DNA of 64,000 bases from Exophiala sp. HKRS030 (Eukaryota > Ascomycota > Eurotiomycetes > Chaetothyriales > Herpotrichiellaceae): positions 4,712,001-4,776,000 of the forward strand of contig JAHWDD010000002.1 of the NCBI GenBank assembly GCA_023897205.1. The letters are read 5' to 3'. The translations under genes were made by a program, and so were the position numbers. The notes under the pieces are model-generated. The model did not search any database, had not been told where the DNA came from, and saw only the letters and a list, made by a program, of their open reading frames with translations. Positions 49,624 through 58,912 of the stretch are shown here, piece after piece. Position 1 is the first letter of the stretch. Every line of letters starts with the position of its first letter.

Positions 49624-49759
49624 GAAGCAGTGTTGGAATGACGTTTAGTCATGTTGTCACTTAATTCAACCGCCGGGCTTTTTTGCACTCGGAAGTTAGA
49701 TACACGGAGCGCAGGCCTACCCAGGTTGGTAATTACTGACTCCACAGTTGGCTAGAATT
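49624..49759. other. SDR 3' flank up to the retroelement insertion
   Basis: Ends in the 5-bp word GAATT (49755-49759) that also follows the right-hand LTR fragment at 50504-50508, a probable target-site duplication. Confidence 0.5.
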
Positions 49760-50019
49760 TGTGTCAGCTTTGTGAGCGTCGACGAAATGACTGTCAACAC
49801 GCACAAATAGATTAAATTAATGTCTGTCTGGTCTATAGAATGATGAGGATTCCTCTTCTCTATATAAATGAGTATAAATAAGAGAAAATCTCTCCTAATA
49901 CGCAAGAAAATTAATAATTAAGTACACTAGGTAAGTACTTATTAATATATCGAATATACGCACTAGCTAGTCGATAGTTCGGTTAATAATTAGTTAATTA
50001 GTAAGCATAAGCTAACACA
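49760..50019 (-). repeat. LTR, about 260 bp, RIP-mutated copy
   Basis: Read on the minus strand it begins TGTGTTAGC and ends GCTGACACA, near-perfect short inverted ends with the TG...CA rule. The inner part is very A/T-rich. In the 120 bp shared with the right-hand copy, all six substitutions are CpA-to-TpA (or the complement) in this copy. Confidence 0.75.
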
Positions 50020-50378: not shown

Positions 50379-50503
50379 TCTCTTGTTCACACTCATTTAT
50401 ATAGAGAAGAGGAATCCTCATCATTCTATAGACCAGACAGACATCAATTCAATCCATTTGTGCGTGTTGACAGTCATTTCGTCGACGCTCACAAAGCTGA
50501 CAA
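50379..50503 (+). repeat. Inverted, unmutated fragment of the same LTR
   Basis: Reverse complement of 49760-49884 with six transitions and a 2-nt end difference. It keeps the ancestral G/C bases where the left copy has A/T. Confidence 0.85.
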
Positions 50504-50854
50504 GAATTGATTCGCCTTTGCCTTCGGCGTTGTGATCTCTGCTCACGGGCCAGTACGAAATGTTGACCTCAAGTAAACACCGACCTTACAACCACAGTCT
50601 TGCATTTAATGCGCGTTTCTGGGTGTATCTTGGTACACACAGTTCCCGACCTGCTTCGAGTTTCCCTCCTCCAGTCTAGAAGACACTTTCAAACGAAACA
50701 ACGGGCTGAGAGAATTTAGCCTGAGGACTGCAAATATAGCTCCCATCACCTCCCAACAGTCGAGGCAGGCACTAGGACTCGAAAACTTGCAAGCGGCCAG
50801 ACCCAATTCACTGCCCCAGTGCGCACTTACGTACCTTACCCGTTTGACCGCTTG

Positions 50855-52326: not shown

Positions 52327-52333
52327 TATATAT
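52327..52333 (+). promoter_or_regulatory. TATA box of array gene 1
   Basis: TATATAT, about 125 nt before the ATG at 52458. Confidence 0.5.
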
Positions 52334-52457: not shown

Positions 52458-53048
52458 ATGTCACGTTCTTCCAAGAGAGAACACTACAAGGAAGGATTCG
52501 ATGTCGACTACGAGCCTAAACGCTACTATGATGACGGCGATGACAACGACAGCGGTGCTGCCTCTGGAAGCGCAGCGAGAGGTCAATCGCGTAGAGAATC
52601 TCAACGCACCACTAGCCACGGAAAACAAGGCACTAGACGCGGCGATGATAGTGACTCTCAAAGTGAGCGCCGGCACAAAACTTCCAAGAAAGATAATCCC
52701 GAATGGATCGGAAGACTTCACGAAAGTCATAGTACTAAGGCCATGCAACAACGTCTGGCTTTTACAGGCCTCTGGCCTCGAAAAGGCGCAAGTGATGCAG
52801 AACATCTTGAAGCACAGATCACTCGAAAAGATGCGTCATCTAAGGGCGATGACGATTCGGACGATGGAACCCAGCGGTACAACACGACGATGGAGAACTA
52901 CAGGAATATGAATTCCCTCAGAGAGCACGGAATCTCTGTCAAACAATTTACCGGCGATCCAGAAAGGCCATATGAGACGAGGTACAAGAATCCAGGTCGT
53001 CCCGACAAGCTTGACCGGAATGCTGTCAACAAGTGGTCTAAGCCTTGA
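52458..53048 (+). CDS. Array gene 1: diverged member of the novel HLT/DFAY family, 196 aa
   Basis: Intronless, with a TATA box upstream. The N-terminal half is disordered and charged (Ser/Arg/Asp-rich: SRRESQRTTSHGKQ). The C-terminal half keeps a diverged version of the family module: LHESHSTKAMQ in place of LHLTSSTEAMR, and, after one 3-residue length change, EN-x16-F followed by a Pro/Arg-rich FTGDPERPYETRY in place of DN-x16-FAYP...DSR. No catalytic motif, membrane segment or signal peptide. Function unknown; an intrinsically disordered binding protein seems likely from composition. It is the first of four same-strand genes in 4.4 kb. Confidence 0.75.
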   Translation: MSRSSKREHYKEGFDVDYEPKRYYDDGDDNDSGAASGSAARGQSRRESQRTTSHGKQGTRRGDDSDSQSERRHKTSKKDNPEWIGRLHESHSTKAMQQRLAFTGLWPRKGASDAEHLEAQITRKDASSKGDDDSDDGTQRYNTTMENYRNMNSLREHGISVKQFTGDPERPYETRYKNPGRPDKLDRNAVNKWSKP

Positions 53049-53554
53049 AGTGTACACACAAAGGTTGGTTCCTTTTCTCCATGCTGATCCTGTCTTTTTG
53101 TTGGTAATTTTCGACTATGGGAAAACTAGATGAGGGAACCAGCTTGTTCCACTCGTGTGGTAGTACTGGTTAGTCTGTAGAGACAATTCAGATTGCCAGA
53201 CTGGACCCTCACAGGTAGTTTATCAGGCCGATTTGGCTAGCTCACCCTCTTGCCTTGCTGTTATCTCAACCATGTCGTAGCCTATATTCACATGTGGTCA
53301 CCGCAGGCATGAGTTCAATCTCCAATGTCCTAAGTTGGACTTACCGATTACTCTGGATCCGACTCACGCCCGTGGATCAAGCTAAATGAGGTGAATCATG
53401 CATAGAGAACTCGTGTCTTAATTCTGTGAATGTTGTTGAGGGGATAATATTATCTCCTTACAAACGCATACTGATCGAGTCAGCTCTTGCAAACCAATCA
53501 TCTCAACTGAGAGTCATAGCATGGTCTGGGGTGAGGACTGGGCCTGAAAAGTGA
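53049..53554. other. Spacer between array genes 1 and 2
   Basis: About 0.5 kb, no ORF of interest; it leads into the TATA box of gene 2. Confidence 0.5.
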
Positions 53555-53561
53555 TATAAAA
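53555..53561 (+). promoter_or_regulatory. TATA box of array gene 2
   Basis: TATAAAA in GTGATATAAAACCC, 115 nt before the ATG at 53670. Confidence 0.65.
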
Positions 53562-53669
53562 CCCATTCAAAGTCTTTTAGCCCGCCAGATTCAATTGCTC
53601 TGTTAGATTCAATTACACAAGAGTCGTATCCAGCTTTTACTGACAATTCGTAGAGGAACTCATTTCATA

Positions 53670-54251
53670 ATGGCAAATAAACGCAGTTCCCTTGAGGAGG
53701 CTAGGAAACAGCCTGCAAGAGGGCAAGCCGGACCATCAAGACCACAGCCCTCTCTTGCGCAAGTAATGGAAGGGCTCAGAATCCAACGTGAGGGTCGAGG
53801 ACATGCAACAGGCTCCAGGGGACCCAGGCATGGCCAAGAAGAAGAGGATGACGATGGCGAGAATGACTCTAGTGATTTCTACATCACTTCAAGTTCTGAA
53901 GATGACAAATTGAAAGCCAGAAGAGACGCGATCCAAAGACTCAAGGAACAGGGTTACGAAACCCTTCATCTAACATCGTCTACCGAAGCAATGAGAATGA
54001 AGAAGCCTTATGCCTTCCCAGAACCGGGCGATTCTGCGCGAGTAATTGCCAACAAAGAGAGGAATCGGTCCTTTTATTCTGATAGGGATAGAAGAGAGAG
54101 GGATAAAGCCAAAGCTGCCGCCGTGACTTTGGACAATGCTGAGGCTACCATCAACCGTCGAGCACATGGTGTTGTGGAAAGGGATTTTGCCTATCCTGCA
54201 GCACATGACCTTCATGGTGACTCTAGACGTAAGAAGGACCGGCCTCGATGA
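53670..54251 (+). CDS. Array gene 2: novel HLT/DFAY family protein, 193 aa
   Basis: Intronless; ATG in context TCATAATGGC. Residues 29-41 (SLAQVMEGLRIQR) are shared with array gene 4 (SLAATMEKLNIQR). Residues 57-82 are an acidic, Ser-rich disordered stretch. The family module covers 100-186: HLTSSTEAM at 100-108, an Arg/Lys-rich middle with FYSDRDRRERDK, DK at 145-146, DN at 155-156 and ERDFAYPAAHDLHGDSR at 170-186, followed by a basic tail. Spacing is identical, without a gap, to genes 3 and 4. No similarity to a family I know, no signal peptide and no membrane helix. Nuclear or cytosolic location is likely from the basic tail; function unknown. Confidence 0.85.
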   Translation: MANKRSSLEEARKQPARGQAGPSRPQPSLAQVMEGLRIQREGRGHATGSRGPRHGQEEEDDDGENDSSDFYITSSSEDDKLKARRDAIQRLKEQGYETLHLTSSTEAMRMKKPYAFPEPGDSARVIANKERNRSFYSDRDRRERDKAKAAAVTLDNAEATINRRAHGVVERDFAYPAAHDLHGDSRRKKDRPR

Positions 54252-54985
54252 TGGCCAAGACTCAAGCACTGGACTGTAGGAATTTGCAGGAGACTAGGCA
54301 GCTGTGTTTCTGGAGTCTAAATTGTTGTGATCTTACAATTGTGAGAGCAAGACCGTCATGTCGTGTGTGAGAAAATGTGATACCTGAATCAAATCAACAC
54401 CTCCAGGCTAGAATATTCTAAGTGGCTAACTCGACCACGTTAATGACCTTTCTTCAAGCACTCGATCAGCTGTCTGCAAAGGAAACAGAGACTTTGAGGT
54501 CTCGGTATAGTATTGGTAAAGACCACAAACGGCTGTTAGAATAAATTCCCAATGTTGACGTTATAGGAGGCCCATCCACGGGCAATTGGACTTCGATCTT
54601 GTAGAGCCGGCAAAGGAAACCCCTGAAGACCAGGACGCTGTTGTCCAGGCTACCTAAAAAGATCCTGCCCAATGACCAGCACTATGAAGAGTCAACTCTG
54701 GAGGCTACAAAGACACACTGAGGGTGAAAATGATGTGTGGTACAGCGTCGTACCCACCGTCAGCCAACAACAGCCAGACCCTCGGAAACTTGTGCTACTT
54801 CGAATTCTCACTGCTCAGTCTCAAGGTCAGGGTGAGATGCCGCAGAGCCTGGCTAGCGATCTTTGAAGTCACTAGGCTCGTGATAGCACGTCTGGTGAGC
54901 GCAGCCTATCTTGCGGTCGTGTGAATACTGTGAGTCTGCTGTCATGACTGGGGATATAATGTCAGTCAGTGTTCTTCTTCCGTGG
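54252..54985. other. Spacer between array genes 2 and 3
   Basis: 0.7 kb. Short ORFs near 54672-54924 do not carry the family motifs and are not accepted. Confidence 0.5.
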
Positions 54986-54992
54986 TATAAAA
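54986..54992 (+). promoter_or_regulatory. TATA box of array gene 3; decides the start
   Basis: TATAAAA in GGTATAAAACCG. It lies only 8 nt before an in-frame ATG at 55000, too close for transcription to include it, so the ATG at 55096 is the likely start. Nearly the same 10-mer as at gene 2. Confidence 0.65.
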
Positions 54993-55095
54993 CCGAGAAA
55001 TGATTATAACCTCAATAACCCGGCCACAAGACCTCCATAAACCAATAACCGACTCAAAAGCGCGGAAAGCTCTAGACACAACAAATTTGATAACC

Positions 55096-55662
55096 ATGCC
55101 GCGGAATTTATTCTCTCTCAAGAAGCTCGGAAAACGCTCAAGCAAGAGTGGCAAAATCGCTTCGCAAGAACAAGCAGAATCGTCTTCGAGTACTCTGAGA
55201 ACTCCTAAACGCCGGCTCGATAAGAAACGACTTACGGCCCAGAACGACGAAGACGCAGATGATGCCGACGCCGAAGTCTCGGAGGACAACGACGGGGAGG
55301 ACGAAACCGAAGACGAAGCGACCGAAGCTAGACTAGACGCAGAAGAGCGAAGTAGAGAAGCAAGGTATGACAGTCTGCATCTGACCGAGTCCACTGAAGC
55401 ATTGAAAAGACGATATCCTACTGTCTATCCTGCCCAAAAAGACACGGAGGAGGACCTTGCTAGGAAGGAAAGAATTCGGAGTTTTGCTTCTGACGAGCAT
55501 CGGAGAGAAGGAGACAAACTAGACAGAGCGACGATTACCAAAGACAACGCCTGGGCAGCTGACGCGCGAAAGAAGAGTACCATTGATGAAAAGGACTTTG
55601 CGTACCCACCGGGTCACCCACTTCATAAAGACTCGAGGCTTGGCAAGGGGAAAGGTAGATGA
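55096..55662 (+). CDS. Array gene 3: novel HLT/DFAY family protein, 188 aa
   Basis: Intronless; the start at 55096 is chosen because the TATA box at 54986 excludes the earlier ATG. The N-terminal 50 residues are basic (FSLKKLGKRSSKSGK, TPKRRLDKKRL), residues 51-85 strongly acidic (Asp/Glu-rich), then the family module: HLTESTEAL at 95-103, a charged middle, DK at 140-141, DN at 150-151 and DEKDFAYPPGHPLHKDSR at 164-181, with a GKGKGR tail. The 87-residue module aligns to genes 2 and 4 without gaps. The SLA..ME.L.IQR N-terminal motif is absent here. Function unknown. Confidence 0.85.
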   Translation: MPRNLFSLKKLGKRSSKSGKIASQEQAESSSSTLRTPKRRLDKKRLTAQNDEDADDADAEVSEDNDGEDETEDEATEARLDAEERSREARYDSLHLTESTEALKRRYPTVYPAQKDTEEDLARKERIRSFASDEHRREGDKLDRATITKDNAWAADARKKSTIDEKDFAYPPGHPLHKDSRLGKGKGR

Positions 55663-56048
55663 AACACCGAGCCTTCCAGGATGGGAGGTCAATATGTATT
55701 TCTCATAATATAAAACTTGTCCCGGGAGCGATATAGATTGGATAGCCACAGTAATGAGCTCCAGCTCGTAGGGTTTAGGTTCTAGTCCAGATGCAGATCA
55801 ATATGCCATAGATCGAGTCTGCGCACGACTTTTTGACGACCGTGGTTGCAACCTGAAGCAGAGCGCTTGGACACGATCTGAGGAGACGCGCTATCGAAAA
55901 TCTCATTATGGTAGCGTATGACAGCGTATGCGGGGAAATCAGTGCGAAGGAGAGCCATTCGTACAGGTAACTCCTGATGCTGCTATGTTCGGCGTGTCAT
56001 AGTGCGCTTGACTGTCTGAGGATGACTGTGGCTGGACTTAGTTTTAGC
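55663..56048. other. Spacer between array genes 3 and 4
   Basis: About 0.4 kb, no gene. Confidence 0.5.
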
Positions 56049-56054
56049 TATAAA
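56049..56054 (+). promoter_or_regulatory. TATA box of array gene 4
   Basis: TATAAA in TAGCTATAAATC, about 170 nt before ATG 56223. Confidence 0.55.
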
Positions 56055-56222
56055 TCTGTCGGTGGAAAGGAGGCCTCTATCTTCTGAGAAATTGATCTGA
56101 AGAAGATATCCAACAAGAAAATTGATGCCTTTCGCAGAAAGAAACGCGGTAACTGCCCCGTTCCAACGCCAAGCGACCAGACGGTACATCCAAAGCCTTC
56201 AATCTATCACCTCTCGAAAGTT

Positions 56223-56836
56223 ATGCCTGCGGAGACGGGGAGCAAGTCCCAAAGTCCGCTTTGAAGCGGCCGGCCCAAGGGCCTCACATACCCACAAAGG
56301 CAGAAGCGTCGTTGGCAGCGACCATGGAGAAGTTGAATATACAACGTAAAAGCCCCAGCCCTAGCTCTAGCGCGGGCCCTAGTCGGCGTGGGAGCCCGAA
56401 GAAGGTGAGGTTCGCTCGTATTGAAGAAGACCAAAGGATTGCCGAACTAGAAGAACAAGATCTCGGAGATCTCGGCAGCGAGGAAGCCAATATCAGCGAG
56501 ATGAGAGAGCGAGAATGGGACCGAATCGAGAGGTTGACTGAGACCGTCCATCTAACGGCTACCACCGAGGCCATGAGAGTAAAGTATCCAGGATTATTTG
56601 ACACACCAGACGAGAACCCTGTCAGTAGACGCGCAAAGCAGCACACGCGAAAGGGTATGTACAACACACAGAACGTGAACCAAGATAAAGCCGATAGAAT
56701 GAATTGCAGTACAGACAATTCTTGGGCAGCTCAGGACCGCAGGGAGAACAAGGTCTTGGAAAGGGACTTTGCGTATGCAGCCAGCGATCCGCTCCACAAG
56801 GATTCGAGATGGTCAAGCGAGGAACTAGATCTGTAA
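56223..56836 (+). CDS. Array gene 4: novel HLT/DFAY family protein (about 204 aa), start region frameshifted
   Basis: The body frame is open from 56153 to 56836 but has no ATG before 56324, inside the SLAATMEKLNIQR motif shared with gene 2. The ATG at 56223 (ATGCCTGCGGAG, like ATGCCGCGGAA of gene 3) is one base out of frame; a fifth G in the G4 run 56237-56240 would connect it and give a family-sized product. The family module is intact: VHLTATTEAM, DK, DN-SWAA, ERDFAYAASDPLHKDSR, in the same spacing as genes 2 and 3. The N-terminal part is Ser/Pro/Arg-rich, the middle acidic. Either a base-call error or a real start at 56324; function unknown. Confidence 0.75.
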
Positions 56837-57181: not shown

Positions 57182-58912
57182 ATGAGTGACGAATCTAATG
57201 GGGCGCCCACGCCAGGCTCGCCCGAGCAATACGCCATCGGAGTATCTTTTGGCAATTCCTACAGTTCGATCGCCCATATCTCTGGAGAGGGCAAGGTCGA
57301 AGTTATTGCCAACGAGGAGGGTGACCGGCAGATTCCCTCGATCCTTTCATACATCGACGGCGAAGAATTTCATGGTACACAAGCTAAATCACAATTGATT
57401 CGTAACAGCAAGAATACTATTGCCTATTTCCGGGACTATATTGGCAAAGACTACAAGTCGATAGATCCCACCCCTTGTCACGCCTCAGCACACCCCATCG
57501 AAAGTGAGGGTGCGATTGCTTTCTCTGTCCAGGATACAGAGGACGAAACCCCAAATAAAGTCACAGTTCCGGAGGTTGCGATACGACATCTTAGGCGGCT
57601 CAAGAATTCGGCATCTGATTACGTTGGAAAAACAGTCACATCTGCTGTAGTTGCAATCCCGACGGACACGACCGAGGAACAGAAGGCTGCCATAACCAAA
57701 GCTGCCGAATCTCTCCAGCTCAGCATTCTTCAGTTCATTCCAGAACCCATTGCTGCGCTATTGGCCTACGACTCGCGATCATCTGATGCTCCTTCAGACA
57801 AGACTGTCCTAGTCGCCGATTTGGGGGGCAACCGATCCGATGCCGCGATTATTGCGTCAAGAGGGGGATTATATACCATTCTAGCCACCGCACACGACTA
57901 CGAATTAGGAGGTGCGCTACTGGACCAAGTCCTGGTCGACCACTTCGCAAAAGAATTCGAGAAAAAGAACAAGTCTGATCCCCGCAAAAACGAGAGAGCC
58001 CTTGCCAAATTGAAATTGGAGGCCGAAGCCGTAAAGAAGACGCTCAGCCAGAGCAGCACTGCAACATTCAGTGTGGAAAGTCTTGCAGATGGCATCGATT
58101 TCCGCTCGACCATCAATCGAAGCCGCTACGAGATTCTAGCCCTGAAAACGTTTGGCAAATTTAGCCAACTTATCAACGAAGTTATTAAGAAGGCGGGACT
58201 TGATGTTCTCGACATCGATGAAGTTATTCTATCCGGAGGCACATCTCACACGCCCAAGATCGCCAACAACATCGCAGCAATCTTCCCGGAGGACTCGACA
58301 CCTGTCCTCGCACCCGCAACCTCTACAACAGCTCTGAATCCCTCGGAATTGTCCGCCAGAGGTGCAGCACTACAAGCCTCTCTGATCGAAGAATTTGAAA
58401 AGGAAGATATAGAACAGTCAACACACGAGATGGTCACGGTAACTCCCCACCTAACCAACGCCATCGGCTACCAAGTAAGCGGCAAATCCTCAGACTCGTT
58501 CACCATCATCGTTCCCACCGACACAGCAGTTCCAGCTCGGAGGACCAAAGTCATCTCTGGACTCGAAGGTGACGTGCTAGTACGCATTAGCGAAGGCGAG
58601 CGGAGCATCAAAGTAACAAAACCTGAGCCCAAAGCCAAACCTGCAACAAACGGTGACAAAGGCAGCGATGACGATGACTCTGAAGATGACTCGGATGACG
58701 AACCACAGGAGATCCGCGAGAAGGTGTGGGAGCCCAAACAAGCGCTTGCCGAGTTCGTCTTCAGAGGCCTGAAAAAGAATTCCAAACTCGAGGTCACAGT
58801 GAACGTCGATGCCGAATTGGCTCTGAACATATCGGCGCGCCAGGTTGGTGGTAAAGGCGGCGTTCGAGGTGAGATCAAGGCCTCCGAAACGACACAAAAT
58901 GGAAGCGTATAG
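57182..58912 (+). CDS. ssz1: Ribosome-associated Hsp70 SSZ1, 576 aa
   Basis: Ssz1 is the atypical Hsp70 that forms the ribosome-associated complex (RAC) with the J-protein zuotin and stimulates Ssb at the ribosome exit. Single exon. The nucleotide-binding domain has AIGVSFGNSYSSIAHIS in place of the usual GIDLGTT loop, FIPEPIAALLAYD, the altered phosphate loop VLVADLGGNRSD, and EVILSGGTSHTPKIANNI. The substrate-binding domain is short, interrupted by an acidic insert (about 495-525) and lacks the helical lid and EEVD, all as in Ssz1. Length is close to yeast Ssz1 (538 aa). Identification is secure; it directly follows the novel four-gene array. Confidence 0.95.
   Translation: MSDESNGAPTPGSPEQYAIGVSFGNSYSSIAHISGEGKVEVIANEEGDRQIPSILSYIDGEEFHGTQAKSQLIRNSKNTIAYFRDYIGKDYKSIDPTPCHASAHPIESEGAIAFSVQDTEDETPNKVTVPEVAIRHLRRLKNSASDYVGKTVTSAVVAIPTDTTEEQKAAITKAAESLQLSILQFIPEPIAALLAYDSRSSDAPSDKTVLVADLGGNRSDAAIIASRGGLYTILATAHDYELGGALLDQVLVDHFAKEFEKKNKSDPRKNERALAKLKLEAEAVKKTLSQSSTATFSVESLADGIDFRSTINRSRYEILALKTFGKFSQLINEVIKKAGLDVLDIDEVILSGGTSHTPKIANNIAAIFPEDSTPVLAPATSTTALNPSELSARGAALQASLIEEFEKEDIEQSTHEMVTVTPHLTNAIGYQVSGKSSDSFTIIVPTDTAVPARRTKVISGLEGDVLVRISEGERSIKVTKPEPKAKPATNGDKGSDDDDSEDDSDDEPQEIREKVWEPKQALAEFVFRGLKKNSKLEVTVNVDAELALNISARQVGGKGGVRGEIKASETTQNGSV

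Follow-up and report, generated by a model that had tools for sequence, protein, structure and literature searches.

In the genome of Exophiala sp. HKRS030, a stretch of 64,000 nucleotides (GenBank assembly GCA_023897205.1, contig JAHWDD010000002.1, positions 4,712,001 to 4,776,000 of the forward strand; hereafter the window) carries a tandem group of four small genes, which belong to a real new protein family for which no name, domain model or function was found. The family is of an ordinary kind: lineage-restricted as far as seen, probably partly disordered, and tandemly duplicated. Its members fall into two types, A and B, follow one gene order, have a constrained module in common, carry upstream TATA boxes in most cases and match no known domain. 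As for function, we tentatively favour an inducible adaptor, in which a short helical docking module would be joined to a variable tail, in a family that would have grown from an ancestral A-B pair.

Members, types and order of the family

The four genes (Table 1) stand on the + strand upstream of an SSZ1 gene (57182-58909), separated by 621, 844 and 490 nucleotides (nt), the last gap being counted to the start of the open frame of gene 4. A first-pass annotation, made from the letters alone, had proposed that the genes form a family not described before and have a module in common. The module spacing that it gave for genes 2-4 was reproduced exactly, and the family itself is supported. That the resemblance arises simply from the composition of charged sequence of low complexity is refuted for genes 2-4 and scarcely credible.

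When the genome (59.8 Mb, 50 contigs) was searched, at least 11 members were found in three regions, four in the window and seven on the contigs denoted C30 and C5; this count is a lower bound, as the members were gathered by single-protein searches and by reading of the open reading frame (ORF) list. Further searches of the genome with C5b, C5a, C30b and C30e as queries gave no additional convincing member. The module follows the pattern T ... R ... N ... G-x4-[DQH]F/W. Its T, R and N columns are invariant in all 11 members of this genome, and with outside relatives included, T and N are invariant in 12 of 12 rows, the R column not being aligned in all of them.

The division into types is sharp. 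Type A comprises gene 1 and its like, type B genes 2-4 and theirs; in the profile comparison, A against A gave 95% and B against B 90%, while cross pairs gave only 6% and 4%. Gene 1 is 49% identical to C30a and 43% to C30b. It had been regarded as merely an older member, but it belongs instead to a sister subfamily, type A. All three tandem groups found have type A ahead of type B on one strand: A B on C5, A A B B on C30 and A B B B in the window. This order and the common promoter feature raise the interest of the family.

No known domain had been recognised in the module, and the database searches agree. With the four window proteins, the sole Pfam match was a weak one of gene 2 to DUF6204, with an E value of 0.055 and 14.2 bits, where the cut-off is 27.5. 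With the 11 modules, the best Pfam match had an E value of 0.03, every weak family appeared in just one of the 11, and none was above its curated cut-off. The PDB sequence search returned one match (E 3.8), the PDB fold search with the models two (best E 3.3, none usable), and the plasmid records none. In the literature, no paper was found that names the three family locus tags searched, and the search on orphans or stress-induced hypothetical proteins gave no lead.

Relatives in other species and rate of evolution

Homologues were found in related genomes. With the 11-member alignment as query, nine proteins were obtained at E<=10 among 535 candidates: gene 1 itself; P0124, P0125 and P0127, which are C30b, C5b and C5a (compared by eye); P0126, a relative of gene 1 in another assembly with 53% identity; and a pair each from Rhinocladiella similis (RBB50_003121 / RBB50_003120) and Exophiala spinifera (PV08_01501 / PV08_01502). 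Each pair has consecutive locus numbers and is annotated as hypothetical protein. Given these relatives, the family is not a de novo orphan in the sense of having no homologue in other species. With gene 3 as the single query, 392 candidates were compared and none reached E<=0.001. Such protein searches detect only relatives that have 5-residue words in common, and unannotated small genes may have been missed.

Both foreign pairs belong to this family and share its division into types A and B. Their relationship is to the C5 pair and not particularly to the window genes, and only two such proteins were found per species; among the 535 candidates of the alignment search, no closer relative of genes 2-4 was found. 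The R. similis and E. spinifera proteins are 83/75% identical to C5a and 81/67% to C5b, near the 77/78% of SSZ1, which served as a yardstick in the same two species. The C5 pair is therefore slow-evolving and the window cluster a divergent expansion. Divergence is much greater in the copies of the window and of C30 than in the C5 pair, and the slowly evolving representatives lie outside the window, at C5:348-350 kb. Between species, that pair shows about the same degree of conservation as an Hsp70-type protein, though the family is nameless.

The A-B pair is adjacent in three species, and mixed A-then-B arrays occur at two further places here. One may think of a two-component system of black yeasts, in which A and B would be obligate partners, their modules folding mutually or on a common target, within an inducible stress or developmental programme; we regard this as quite improbable.

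In another explanation, function would be kept by the C5 pair alone, and the copies in the window and on C30 would be dispensable, fast-decaying duplicates, relics nearing loss. Paralogues are just 32-49% identical, gene 4 and C30c have no upstream in-frame start, and C30a has none ahead of its module, all of which would fit decay. Against this, all modules keep open frames, TATA sites are retained upstream of all four window genes, and the gene 1 relative P0126 is present in another assembly. Moreover, the proportion of nonsynonymous differences (pN) was well under the saturated synonymous one (pS) in nine of the nine pairs compared, which points to purifying selection and upholds the earlier claim of duplication with selection on the module. 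Decay of the copies is accordingly judged unlikely. The slow C5 pair and the fast tandem copies, which share one gene order and in most cases a TATA box, make a clean case for the study of new roles of duplicated disordered proteins.

Promoters

In 9 of the 11 members, a TATAWA site is present upstream, the out-of-frame upstream ATGs being taken as reference for gene 4 and C30c; by the strict count (first in-frame ATG, -200 to -30) the figure is 7 of 11. Among 38 control ORFs there was none (Fisher 2.7e-8 and 3.8e-6, respectively), the controls being first-ATG ORFs of at least 200 codons from the same stretches and not verified genes. TATAWAW fits all nine sites and TATAWAWR three of them. No lead came from named regulatory motifs upstream; a TGACTCA-like site was seen in three of nine promoters, uncorrected for the motifs and words tried. 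In yeast, TATA promoters are described as accompanying regulated, stress-responsive genes (PMC3553024), and the upstream TATA boxes suggest that the family genes may likewise be regulated.

Structure, hydrophilicity and possible function

In AlphaFold models built from 12-row alignments, the N-terminal part is unstructured and the module helical, with a predicted local distance difference test score (pLDDT) of about 65-87 over most of the module and mostly below 50 in the tails. The tails are predicted to be disordered on this low confidence, which comes from models with shallow alignments.

According to the adaptor explanation, an ancestral tandem pair, type A then type B, would have been duplicated to give the present family. 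The proteins, small and probably cytosolic or nuclear, would dock on one conserved partner by the conserved, helix-rich C-terminal module, folding upon it, and the variable N-terminal tail would diversify the output. The TATA-box promoters might switch the genes on under a stress or developmental cue, and A and B might act jointly. Black yeasts are a group noted for tolerance of harsh conditions, to which the family genes would be candidate contributors if they are indeed induced by stress.

Several observations weigh against the adaptor. No TATA site precedes C30e, and a recognisable start is lacking in C30a. In yeast, TATA boxes are also stated to be enriched among duplicated new genes (PMC3553024), so that those seen here need not mean stress and may be a consequence of the duplication as such. 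Model quality is poor (mean pLDDT 62.0 and 58.5; predicted template modelling score 0.29 and 0.35), and the models gave no usable fold match. No family match from E. mesophila appeared in the alignment search, by which absence is not shown. Finally, the hydrophilicity index, taken as minus the grand average of hydropathy (GRAVY), exceeds 1 in nine of the ten proteins scored (C30a, having no start, was omitted).

This last result keeps generic desiccation or osmotic protectants in consideration, that is, hydrophilin- or LEA-like (late embryogenesis abundant) disordered shields without a specific partner. The poor folding of the models speaks for such shields as well, and TATA promoters are compatible with induced genes. 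Hydrophilins are defined by more than 6% glycine together with a hydrophilicity index above 1, and yeast Sip18 and Stf2 are named among them (PMC11277543). The family resembles them in being small and very hydrophilic, but only genes 1 and 2 show both properties; the other eight of the ten proteins do not, seven of them falling short on glycine alone, and the family has a position-specific module. LEA proteins are charged, helix-prone and hydrophilic. The family shares these traits, but no LEA model was among its matches to Pfam (the only models run), no internal repeat of at least 24 nt was found inside any of the genes, and there is no excess helical moment. An amphipathic-helix shield was rejected, the moment equalling that of shuffles in all four window modules. 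Furthermore, a shield would presumably not need strict spacing of conserved residues, and the fixed spacing, together with the small number of proteins having both hydrophilin properties, argues for a specific module. A generic protectant is thus a possible explanation, though a somewhat unlikely one. We infer partner binding from sequence, and favour the adaptor modestly over the protectant.

Table 1. Coordinates of family genes, modules and TATA boxes (positions without prefix are those of the window)
Feature	Position	Strand	Remarks
Gene 1, type A	52458..53048	+	uninterrupted ORF, 196 amino acids
Gene 2, type B	53670..54251	+	uninterrupted ORF, 193 amino acids
Gene 3, type B	55096..55662	+	uninterrupted ORF, 188 amino acids
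Gene 4, type B	56153..56836	+	open frame; putative start; 170 amino acids from first in-frame ATG 56324
Gene 1, type A module	52689..53045	+	from family alignment
Gene 2, 87-residue module	53967..54227	+	spacing check; coordinates derived
Gene 3, 87-residue module	55378..55638	+	spacing check; coordinates derived
Gene 4, 87-residue module	56549..56809	+	spacing check; coordinates derived
TATA box, gene 1	52327..52333	+	TATATAT, 131 nt ahead of ATG
TATA box, gene 2	53555..53561	+	115 nt ahead of ATG
TATA box, gene 3	54986..54992	+	110 nt ahead of ATG
TATA box, gene 4	56049..56055	+	76 nt before out-of-frame ATG 56125; 275 nt before in-frame ATG 56324
C30a	C30:135428-135799	+	family member; without recognisable start
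C30b	C30:136343-136822	+	family member
C30c	C30:138095-138634	+	family member; no upstream in-frame start
C30d	C30:139303-140097	+	family member
C30e	C30:159967-160629	+	family member
C5a	C5:348190-348777	-	family member
C5b	C5:349522-350202	-	family member, from ORF list

Reading frames and tails of single members

The genes had been described as four intronless genes, which agrees with the uninterrupted ORFs of genes 1-3 but is not supported for gene 4. The start proposed for gene 4, at 56223, is an ATG in a different frame that meets a stop after 13 codons. The SLAxxM motif, common to gene 2, gene 4 and C30c, begins upstream of the in-frame ATG of gene 4. Both gene 4 (56125-56324) and C30c (C30:137961-138143) have a TATAAATC box followed by an out-of-frame ATG, and in both the in-frame ATG first occurs inside the SLAxxM motif. 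A simple intron in either gene was rejected, none of the 14 splice candidates listed having a branch-site match. This oddity may be due to an upstream ORF, to an intron of an unusual kind, to initiation at a codon other than ATG, or to decay of the frame. The tails of the two genes also have SPKKVRF (56393-56413) and SPRKHVVRF (C30:138176-138202) in common, of which SPKKVRF in gene 4 presumably fits the phosphatase-1 docking pattern. C30e has a hydrophobic stretch at its C-terminus and may be a tail-anchored form.

Neighbouring genes and duplicated copies

The best named match of the window SSZ1 is from Exophiala mesophila (86%), which places the host in the Chaetothyriales. Further genes are taken to be DnaJ/SCJ1-like, SnoaL-like and dehydrogenase genes from sequence reading only. 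Three unrelated genes have a second copy each, at 76-79% protein identity: SSZ1 (the window gene and C2:1275687-1277408), the DnaJ-type gene (C5:345321-346661 and C30:160861-162152) and the dehydrogenase-like gene (C30:133525-134463 and C8:349866-350807). The E. mesophila genome is given as 30.43 Mb (PMC6509517). Set beside the 59.8 Mb here and the second copies, this size is faintly suggestive of a hybrid or of an ancient duplication of the whole genome, as seen at these three genes only.

The surroundings of the second SSZ1 do not preserve the gene order. A copy of the cluster next to this SSZ1 was looked for and rejected: the 50 kb there gave, besides SSZ1, only two weak matches (E 6e-5 and 9.5e-5), and the cluster was involved in neither. 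The idea that the window and C30 clusters were duplicated as one block together with the dehydrogenase-like gene upstream of each was also rejected, since the nearest relative of the C30 copy is on C8 (79%) and the window gene stands far down the 129 matches (E 1.6e-13 and 4.5e-9).

About 2 kb upstream of gene 1 lies an inverted repeat (49756-49885 / 50379-50508) with 130-nt arms, 94% complementary and 493 nt apart. Bases 7-523 of this stretch occur at 12 genomic places including its own, with 92-100% identity, and the arms at many more; it is a multi-copy terminal-inverted-repeat element.
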